NCBI RefSeq assembly: GCF_014195685.1
Contig: NZ_JACICF010000001.1
Coordinates: forward strand, 94,992 to 158,991
DNA from: Sphingomicrobium lutaoense
GTDB lineage: Bacteria; Pseudomonadota; Alphaproteobacteria; Sphingomonadales; Sphingomonadaceae
Direction of reading: 5' to 3'
DNA length: 64,000 bases
The notes beneath the pieces were generated by a model. It was not told the origin of the DNA and searched no databases. It was given only the letters and a program-made list of their open reading frames with translations. Below are positions 44,152 through 47,232 of the stretch, piece after piece (within the stretch, counting starts at the first letter, position 1; every line of letters begins with the position of its first letter). The position numbers and the translations under genes are program-made.

Positions 44152-45726
44152 CTAGAATCGCAGGGCGACGACTTCGCGTACGCCTTCGAGCTCGCACAGC
44201 CGGCGGATCGTTTCGCGGCTCGCGGGGCTGTCGATCGCGATCAGCGCCACCGCCGCGCCGCCCACCTTGCGCCGTCCGAGGTTGAAGGTCGCGATATTGA
44301 TGTCGGCCTTGCCGAGAGTCGTGCCCAGCGCCCCGATGAAGCCCGGTGCGTCGGTGTTGACGATATAGAGCATCGGGCCGGTCAGCTCGGCCTCGATCCC
44401 CACGCCGAAGATATGGACGAGGCGCGGATTGTTATGCCCGAACAGGGTACCCGCGACACTGCGCGGGCCATCGGGAGTGCGTGCGGTGACGCGCACGAGC
44501 GTGTGATAGTCGCCTTCATGGCTGTGGCGCACCTCGGACACGTCGAGCCCGCGATCCTTGGCGAGCAAGGGAGCGTTGACCATGTTCACGCTGTCCGAAT
44601 AGCTGCCCATGAGGCCCGCGAGCACCGCGCCGGTAATCGGTTTGATATTGAGTTCGGCGGCATCGCCTTCGACCTCGACCGCGATCGATTCGATCTGTTC
44701 GCCCAGGGTCTGGCCGACCAGTTTACCGAGACTTTCGGCAAGCCCCATATAGGGCTTCACGCGCGGCGCTTCCTCGGCGGTGAGCGAAGGCATGTTGATC
44801 GCATTGGTAACCGCGCCCGACAGAAGGAAATCGCTCATCTGTTCGGCGACCTGGATCGCGACATTGACCTGCGCCTCGGTGGTCGAAGCCCCGAGATGCG
44901 GTGTCGAAATGAAACCCGGCGTCCCGAACAACGGGCTTTCATGCGCGGGTTCATTCTCGAACACGTCAAGCGCCGCGCCCGCGACCTTTCCGCTGTCGAG
45001 CGCCTCTTTCAGGGCCGCTTCGTCGATCAGGCCGCCGCGCGCGCAATTGATGATCCGCACGCCCGTCTTGGCCTTGGCGAGCGCATCTGCATCGAGAATG
45101 CCACGGGTCTGGTCGGTGAGCGGAGTGTGCAGGGTGATGAAGTCGGCACGCGCGAGCAGGCTGTCGAGATCGACTTTCTCGACGCCAAGTTCGAGCGCGC
45201 GTTCGGGAGTGAGGAAGGGGTCGTAGGCGATCACCTTCATCTTCAGGCCCAGAGCGCGGCTAGCGACGATCGAGCCGATGTTGCCCGCTCCGATGAGTCC
45301 GAGCGTCTTGCCGGTTAGCTCTACCCCCATGAATTTCGACTTTTCCCATTTGCCGGCCTGCGTCGAGGCGTCGGCGGCGGGAAGCTGACGGGCCAGCGCG
45401 AACATCATCGCAATGGCATGCTCGGCGGTGGTAATCGAATTGCCGAAGGGCGTGTTCATCACCACGATGCCGTGCTGCGAGGCGGCGGCGATGTCGATAT
45501 TGTCCACCCCGATCCCGGCGCGTCCGATGACCTTGAGATTGTCGGCATGTTCGAGGAGGGCGGGGGTGACCCTGGTCGCGGAGCGCACTGCCAGCCCGTC
45601 ATATTCGCCGATCACCCGGGCCAGTTCGTCGGGGCTCATGCCCGGCAGTTCATCGACCTCGAGCCCGCGTTCGCGGAAGATCTCGGCGGCGCGCGGATCC
45701 ATCTTGTCGGAAATGAGGATCTTCAC
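44152..45726 (-). CDS. serA: D-3-phosphoglycerate dehydrogenase
   Basis: 524 residues, the long type. It oxidises 3-phosphoglycerate in serine synthesis. The substrate/NAD domain has GLIGAGNIGSIVA near residue 145-157, RAGIGVDNID, and FENEPAHESPLF with HLGASTTEAQ. An intervening (allosteric substrate-binding) domain and a C-terminal ACT domain (about 450-524) follow. The GTG at 45726 overlaps the serC stop (GTGA), so the pair is co-translated. Confidence 0.95.
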   Translation of the reverse strand: MKILISDKMDPRAAEIFRERGLEVDELPGMSPDELARVIGEYDGLAVRSATRVTPALLEHADNLKVIGRAGIGVDNIDIAAASQHGIVVMNTPFGNSITTAEHAIAMMFALARQLPAADASTQAGKWEKSKFMGVELTGKTLGLIGAGNIGSIVASRALGLKMKVIAYDPFLTPERALELGVEKVDLDSLLARADFITLHTPLTDQTRGILDADALAKAKTGVRIINCARGGLIDEAALKEALDSGKVAGAALDVFENEPAHESPLFGTPGFISTPHLGASTTEAQVNVAIQVAEQMSDFLLSGAVTNAINMPSLTAEEAPRVKPYMGLAESLGKLVGQTLGEQIESIAVEVEGDAAELNIKPITGAVLAGLMGSYSDSVNMVNAPLLAKDRGLDVSEVRHSHEGDYHTLVRVTARTPDGPRSVAGTLFGHNNPRLVHIFGVGIEAELTGPMLYIVNTDAPGFIGALGTTLGKADINIATFNLGRRKVGGAAVALIAIDSPASRETIRRLCELEGVREVVALRF

Positions 45727-46841
45727 GCGCTTTTCTCCCAGGCATAGTCGAGCCATGGCCCGAGGGCCTCGATATCGGCGGTTTCGACGGTCGCTCCGCA
45801 CCAGATGCGGAGGCCCGGCGGTGCGTCGCGATAGCCGCCGATGTCATAGGCGACCTCTTCTTCCTCGAGCAGCGCGGTCATGCGCTTGATCCGCTCCTGG
45901 TCTGCGCCTTCGAGCGTCAGGCAGACCCCCGTGCGCGAGCGGATCGCGGGGTCGGGGCACAGGTGATGCAGCCAGTCGCGCTCCTCGACGAGACGGTCAA
46001 CCGCCTCGGCATTGGCGGTGCAGCGCTCGATCATGCCATCGAGGCCGCCGATCGACTGCGCCCATTCGAGCGAATGGATGGCATCCTCGACGCAGAGCAT
46101 CGAGGGAGTGTTGATGGTCGAGCCTTCGAAAATCTCCTCCATGAGCTTGCCCTTCTTGGTGAGGCGGAAGAGCTTGGGAAGGGGGCGGTCGGGGGTGTGG
46201 CTTTCGAGGCGCTCGACGGCACGCGGACCGAGGATCAGGACGCCATGCGCGGCTTCTCCACCCAGCACTTTCTGCCAGGAAAAGGTGGCGACATCGATCT
46301 TGTCCCAGGGAAGCTTGTGCGCGAACACCGCGCTCGTCGCGTCGACGAAGCTCAGGCCCTGGCGGTGGCCCGGGATCCAGTCGCCGTTCGGCACGCGAAC
46401 CCCGCTGGTGGTGCCATTCCAGGTGAAAAGAACATCGTGGTGCCAGCCGACCTTTTTCAAATTGGGAAGCTCGCCATAGGGGGCTTCCATCACATGGGTG
46501 TCGAGGCCCAGTTGCTCGATCGCGTCATTGACCCAGCCCTTGCCGAAGCTTTCCCATGCGAGCGCGGTGACGGGGCGGGCGCCGAGCATCGTCCACATCG
46601 CCATTTCGAAGGCGCCGGTGTCCGAGCCCGGAACGATGCCGAGGCGATGGGTGTCGGGAAGTTCGAGCGTTTCGCGCATCAGGTCGATGCAGCGCTGGAG
46701 GCGCGCCTTGCCGATCTTCGAGCGGTGGGACCGGCCGAGGCTTGCGGTGTCCAGTCTGGAAGCTTCCCAGCCCGGCGGCTTGGCGCAAGGGCCGGATGAA
46801 AAATAGGGTCGTGCAGGACGCACGGCAGGTGGTTTCGTCAT
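45723..46841 (-). CDS. serC: Phosphoserine aminotransferase
   Basis: 372 residues of the Methanosarcina-type SerC group common in alphaproteobacteria. It transaminates 3-phosphohydroxypyruvate with PLP. Visible: FSSGPCAKPPGW at the start, GIVPGSDTGAFEMAMWTML, and the PLP Lys in ATFSWQKVLGGEAAHG. The leader contains a structured RNA element. serA follows by GTGA. Serine made here feeds the serine palmitoyltransferase coded 15 kb away. Confidence 0.95.
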   Translation of the reverse strand: MTKPPAVRPARPYFSSGPCAKPPGWEASRLDTASLGRSHRSKIGKARLQRCIDLMRETLELPDTHRLGIVPGSDTGAFEMAMWTMLGARPVTALAWESFGKGWVNDAIEQLGLDTHVMEAPYGELPNLKKVGWHHDVLFTWNGTTSGVRVPNGDWIPGHRQGLSFVDATSAVFAHKLPWDKIDVATFSWQKVLGGEAAHGVLILGPRAVERLESHTPDRPLPKLFRLTKKGKLMEEIFEGSTINTPSMLCVEDAIHSLEWAQSIGGLDGMIERCTANAEAVDRLVEERDWLHHLCPDPAIRSRTGVCLTLEGADQERIKRMTALLEEEEVAYDIGGYRDAPPGLRIWCGATVETADIEALGPWLDYAWEKSA

Positions 46842-46974
46842 AATGTCCCCTCATCGAGAGGCGCGCCGCGTTGGGGCGGCGTGGCCCAAGGATCTTCTAC
46901 GTCAGCTAGGGGACGCATGACAGACTGAATCGATGCCTCGGGCCCGTGAAAAATTCGCGCCTTTCCGCGATTAT
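46842..46974 (-). promoter_or_regulatory. Structured 5' leader of serC (serC RNA motif candidate)
   Basis: On the minus strand, the last 40 bases hold CGCCGC/GCGGCG (46864-46881) and CCTC/GAGG (46849-46861); the second stem contains the GAGGGG ribosome-binding site. An alternative pairing TTGGG/CCCAA uses the loop of the first stem and cannot form together with it. Alphaproteobacterial serC genes are known to carry a conserved leader, the serC motif; I match it by position and shape, not by alignment. Confidence 0.55.
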
Positions 46975-46980
46975 TCATTT

Positions 46981-47010
46981 ACTAAACGTTAAACGCTTAA
47001 CCTGAATCAA
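46981..47010 (-). promoter_or_regulatory. Candidate serC promoter with TTAA half sites
   Basis: On the minus strand TTGATT (47010-47005) and TTTAGT (46986-46981) are 18 bases apart. The spacer holds GTTAA-N4-TTAAC (46988-47001). A GANTC site overlaps the -35 element. Transcription would start near 46974, giving a leader of about 130 bases. Confidence 0.4.
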
Positions 47011-47232
47011 GAAAATCCTGCATTTCATCGCTTCGTCGCCGCAGTTCGTCCCTAATGGTGGAACGATCAGTTGAATTCCTTAACCTTTCGGGCACAGCTT
47101 ACCCCTCGCGACTTCAAGGGGCACTGACTAGGTCGCGTTTCGGGAGGATGGGGATCCTCGAAATTGGGAATATTTAGTTGGGCCGCAGCCCGAATAGGCG
47201 AAGCGGTCGAACTAATAAGAGCGGGTAGAGGC
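47011..47232. other. Rest of the 391-base intergenic region between serC and the M23 peptidase gene
   Basis: No coding region was recognised here other than a possible TTG-started N-terminal extension of the peptidase from 47164. AT-rich stretches (for example GAATTCCTTAACC at 47072) could include a promoter for the peptidase gene, but no convincing -35/-10 pair was found. Confidence 0.4.

Follow-up and report, generated by a model that had tools for sequence, protein, structure and literature searches.

A divergent variant of the serC leader RNA precedes serC-serA in Sphingomicrobium lutaoense

In a stretch of 64,000 nucleotides from Sphingomicrobium lutaoense (the whole analysed stretch is called the window here), the genes of phosphoserine transaminase, serC, and phosphoglycerate dehydrogenase, serA, follow one another on the minus strand (Table 1). 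The DNA before serC had been read, from the sequence only, as a leader of about 130 bases in which mutually exclusive hairpins hide the ribosome-binding site. The question is whether such a leader exists, to which family of RNAs it belongs, and how it might act on serC. The serC protein is 74.5% identical to that of Sphingomonas parapaucimobilis (tblastn), and the order serC-serA is likewise annotated in S. parapaucimobilis and in Sinorhizobium meliloti. For serA, the listed GTG probably lies upstream of the true start. In S. parapaucimobilis YK209, serC-serA and its leader are found on a record that is described as a plasmid of 395 kb.

Table 1. Positions in the window of the serC leader, its probable promoter and the two genes behind it.
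Feature	Position	Strand	Remarks
Probable -35 element CTGTCA	46918..46923	minus	best match with TAGAAG, spacer 18, 8/12
Probable -10 element TAGAAG	46894..46899	minus	family-wide -10 here or 1 nt off
GGG, probable first transcript bases	46885..46887	minus	positions 5-7; in 159/159 anchored elements
P1 hairpin CGCCGC-CCCAAC-GCGGCG	46864..46881	minus	arms 46881-46876 with 46869-46864; loop 46875-46870
P2 hairpin CCUCUC-GAU-GAGGGG	46847..46861	minus	arms 46861-46856 with 46852-46847
Shine-Dalgarno GAGGGG	46847..46852	minus	from sequence; 5 nt (ACATT) to ATG 46841
serC, phosphoserine transaminase, 372 aa	45723..46841	minus	start codon ATG at 46841; ORF list; tblastn matches to annotated phosphoserine transaminase
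serA, phosphoglycerate dehydrogenase	44152..45801	minus	serC then serA

The leader lies directly upstream of serC-serA and is a real, divergent ortholog of the alphaproteobacterial serC element RF00517. The Rfam covariance model matches positions 46891-46840 over its full length with 33.8 bits (E 8e-6), 1.2 bits below the curated gathering cut-off of 35 bits. Because of this score the leader is missing from a default Rfam scan of the window, which gives a tRNA as its only entry. A second covariance model (R2), for which 36 relatives but not the window were used, finds the leader at the same place with 48.3 bits (E 1e-10), and a search of the genome with this model gives no other match. The two scans thus bear out the suggestion of the sequence-only reading that the serC motif, perhaps in divergent form, is present here. 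The family itself was already known (Corbino et al. 2005, PMC1273637), and the window contributes a divergent variant of it. As in the published element, a promoter stands directly upstream, the sequence GGGNCAC precedes P1 with its CCCAAC-type loop, and P2 covers the Shine-Dalgarno sequence of the first gene of serC-serA. The family carries U[GNRA]G in P2, whereas in the window leader the register of P2 is shifted and a GAU triloop closes it. For lack of the GNRA tetraloop the leader is filed as a variant ortholog and not as a canonical member. Nothing on the window leader was found in the Zymomonas and other literature.

Both hairpins are seen in the comparison of relatives. In an alignment of 60 Sphingomonadales sequences (A1), 99.7% of the P1 cells are paired and five of its six pairs have changed on both sides; the corresponding values for P2 are 96.9% and four of six. 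Compensatory changes occur in 9 of the 16 named pairs, a number that none of 500 shuffles reached, and controls with slid partners were far lower. RNAalifold, unaided, recovers P1 and P2. The stem CGCCGC/GCGGCG that had been noticed by eye is therefore P1, supported by homology models and by covariation, and the stem said to hold the GAGGGG site is P2, with the Shine-Dalgarno sequence in its 3' arm. The earlier reading had named the lack of a covariance-model match and of compensatory changes across sphingomonads as its refutation; both are present, the changes far above the level of the shuffles. Thermodynamically the 48-nt leader stands out only weakly (z-score -1.1), and alternative folds of nearly equal energy are predicted; a value of -2.9 was set aside, since the stretch folded for it had taken in promoter DNA. 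The support for the structure is comparative, not energetic. At the foot of P1 an A10.C29 juxtaposition is nearly invariant; a few elements have G.U or G-C in its place, as would be expected of an additional pair.

The second hairpin departs from the family in its loop. UGNRAGG is found in P2 of 150 of the 159 elements compared, and the window P2, CUCUCGAUGAGGGGAC, has no GNRA tetraloop. Folded in the canonical register, it would have the loop GAUGAG closed by four weak pairs (-3.2 kcal/mol). In the shifted register, six pairs CCUCUC/GAGGGG enclose the GAU triloop at -7.3 kcal/mol, the family median being -6.6. Model R2, which was made without the window, selects the same shifted register and places a 3-nt deletion in the loop. 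The shifted P2 thus keeps its strength, and sequestration of the Shine-Dalgarno sequence is retained in spite of the lost loop; the start codon follows P2 after 5 nt, within the limit of about 11 nt. As the window leader comes from a single genome, a sequencing error may conceivably account for the loss. Two genomes of another family (G045 and G051; loci L089 and L090; genus g10, family f4) have lost the loop in another way and have kept the element. In them a near-perfect P2 stem encloses UAUUCUGU...AGAAUA, and AGGAG comes after it. Other variant serC elements (L092, L093, L094, L096 and L097) have an intact P1 and a short or absent P2; at position 10 they have G, not A, which pairs with position 29.

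How long the leader is depends on where its transcript starts. A near-consensus pair of probable -35 and -10 elements is situated at a fixed distance before the motif; in nearly all relatives the end of the promoter is immediately followed by the motif. CTGTCA is found at the same place in the relatives G018, G034 and G001. Counted from motif position 1, the family prefers T at -31 (146/159) and G at -29, and its -10 element has TA at -9/-8 and T at -4. A promoter directly before the motif was noted for the 2005 examples (PMC1273637). The GGG lies 7 nt downstream of the family -10. Throughout the 159 elements position 4 is a pyrimidine and position 5 is G, in keeping with transcription from G5, and the transcript probably begins there (46887). 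The RNA leader would then be about 46-48 nt long, and 46892-47010 would be promoter and upstream DNA. The length of about 130 bases given earlier is to be cut to about a third, because the conserved promoter puts the start near 46887; a 130-nt leader was rejected, as it would contain this promoter.

Just upstream of the serC promoter (46925-47020 and the loci of the same genus), GANTC occurs in 32 of 36 genomes, against about 16 expected. GANTC is the methylation sequence of CcrM. Four of these same-genus loci also carry a TTATCCACA-like DnaA box. The target of the GANTC sites may be the divergent M23 peptidase-like gene instead of serC.

The P1 loop CCCAAC is near-invariant across the family. 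Its first half, CCC at positions 17-19, is found in all 159 elements, as is the GGG, in a set that was anchored by a pattern requiring both; the one match that failed the pattern was judged spurious. Together they may form a 3-bp GGG:CCC pseudoknot, a possibility read from the sequences, between the 5' end and the P1 loop. In the main copies (n = 159) these pairs are invariant, hence they give no covariation signal. The sequence-only reading had proposed a longer pairing, TTGGG/CCCAA, that breaks the first stem. Since CCCAAC is the P1 loop, such a pairing would be a pseudoknot, and the hairpins do not exclude each other: there is no competing helix, and CCCAA belongs to the loop of P1, not to its stem. 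The longer pairing is not a family feature, as 113 of the 159 elements have C at position 4 and GGG:CCC alone is conserved. The UU of TTGGG is probably upstream of the transcript start.

The explanation that a TTGGG/CCCAA helix competes with P1 in a 130-nt leader, and in this way gates the ribosome-binding site, is thus very improbable. Both segments are present and complementary, but as a stand-alone hairpin they reach -4.1 kcal/mol, compared with -11.7 for P1. Their pairing would also have to rely on loop bases and on two unconserved, probably untranscribed ones, in a leader with the promoter inside it. Even less credence can be given to translational coupling or attenuation by an upstream reading frame, with an ATG about 76 nt upstream and a stop that overlaps the serC start (ATGA). 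This frame is open in the window, as judged by eye. However, its ATG overlaps the -35 region and precedes the probable transcript start, and its length and frame vary among relatives (also by eye). It was rejected because the start codon lies inside the promoter.

Matches to RF00517 are found in 58 of 61 related genomes, and most of them outscore the window. In a sample of the alphaproteobacterial class, 127 of 387 genomes have a match, a lower bound, since reading the sequence before serC reveals the element in five sphingomonad "negatives". True absence from genomes of the same family that have no RF00517 match was therefore rejected; the element had been lost by the search filters. All 159 elements compared precede serC, and the element was also matched here before the annotated serC-serA of S. 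parapaucimobilis and S. meliloti.

In the Kordiimonas family the element is doubled in 23 of the 27 genomes that bear it (L001:1449-1552; L170-L192). A degenerate first copy follows directly after the promoter and directly precedes a normal copy. The first copies keep P1 and a GG opposite the CC of its loop, and in P2 nearly all retain U[GNRA]G, although the sequence behind them has no conserved start codon. Half of the first copies would have U:A, C:G or G:C as the third pair of the pseudoknot; in the rest this pair is non-standard, mostly C.A. Covariation of the pseudoknot in these copies is suggestive only. No mention of tandem serC elements was found in the literature searched, a scope that did not include the 2018 motif update; Greenlee et al. 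reportedly updated the serC model in that year.

With a probability of about 0.8, the window leader is a divergent serC ortholog that works as follows. Transcription from the promoter upstream would start at the GGG (46887) or no more than about 2 nt away from it, and the serC start codon would follow about 46 nt later. Folding of this RNA would give P1 and P2, and the 5'-terminal GGG may hold the CCCAAC loop in a small pseudoknot. We infer that P2, by hiding the Shine-Dalgarno sequence in its 3' arm, would keep translation of serC low, and that of serA as well by way of the operon. A signal read by the part made of P1 and the 5' GGG would shift P2 between its closed and open forms; this signal could be a small molecule or an RNA-binding protein.

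In-line probing of the Agrobacterium tumefaciens element supports the two hairpins and the logic of P2 and the ribosome-binding site (PMC1273637). In the same experiments serine, threonine, PLP, pyridoxal, pyridoxine, pyridoxamine and 4-pyridoxic acid did not bind (PMC1273637). Two of the ligands put forward for the window leader, serine and PLP, thus fail for the canonical element of A. tumefaciens; the third, phosphoserine, was outside the tested set. The objection that the 2005 binding tests lacked the GGG was dropped as unproven. In S. meliloti the first G of GGG is at -46, which equals the published end of the A. tumefaciens construct (-46), and the construct therefore probably included the GGG.

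Among known systems, the SAM-II (metA) riboswitch is likewise alphaproteobacterial and short, with a single stem and a pseudoknot (PMC1273637). Its sequence and genes differ from those of the serC leader, no Rfam match to it was found here, and the serC pseudoknot, which is only suggested, would join the 5' end to a loop, unlike that of SAM-II. In other phyla serC or serA are controlled by the glycine riboswitch or T-box(Ser) (PMC9481103, PMC3766115). These RNAs are unrelated to the serC leader, and Rfam scans gave no match to them within the window.

It is conceivable, at somewhat less than even odds, that both hairpins are read by an RNA-binding protein and not by a metabolite, as a leader is read by PyrR in Bacillus. 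With about 48 nt the element is short, its hairpin loops are its most conserved parts, and the negative probing with serine, threonine and the B6 vitamers agrees with a protein (PMC1273637). No candidate protein is at hand, however, and serC is still counted among the orphan riboswitch candidates in a later review (PMC7266159). A more doubtful proposal is a 5'-terminal micro-switch in which GGG docks into the P1 loop, so that sensing would involve the choice of start site or the 5' end as such; the tandem copies of Kordiimonadaceae would belong to the same picture. That the window element is degenerating is improbable. On this account reading of the signal was lost with the GNRA loop, and P2 sets a fixed low rate of translation; the missing U[GNRA]G, a Rfam score near the bottom of the range of the relatives and the small genome (2.08 Mb) would fit. 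Nevertheless, P1 has all its pairs and its CCCAAC loop, the GGG is intact, the register shift preserves the stability of P2, and the two g10 genomes kept the element without the loop. The reading preferred here remains that of a divergent serC ortholog with P2 as the element controlling translation.

The GNRA-less variant and the tandem copies help to separate the parts of the element that sense from those that control translation. If the micro-switch proposal were true, the first tandem copy would mark U[GNRA]G as belonging to the recognised fold and not to the expression platform, and the window copy would be a natural loop mutant. The probable start at GGG defines an RNA that is suited to binding tests.
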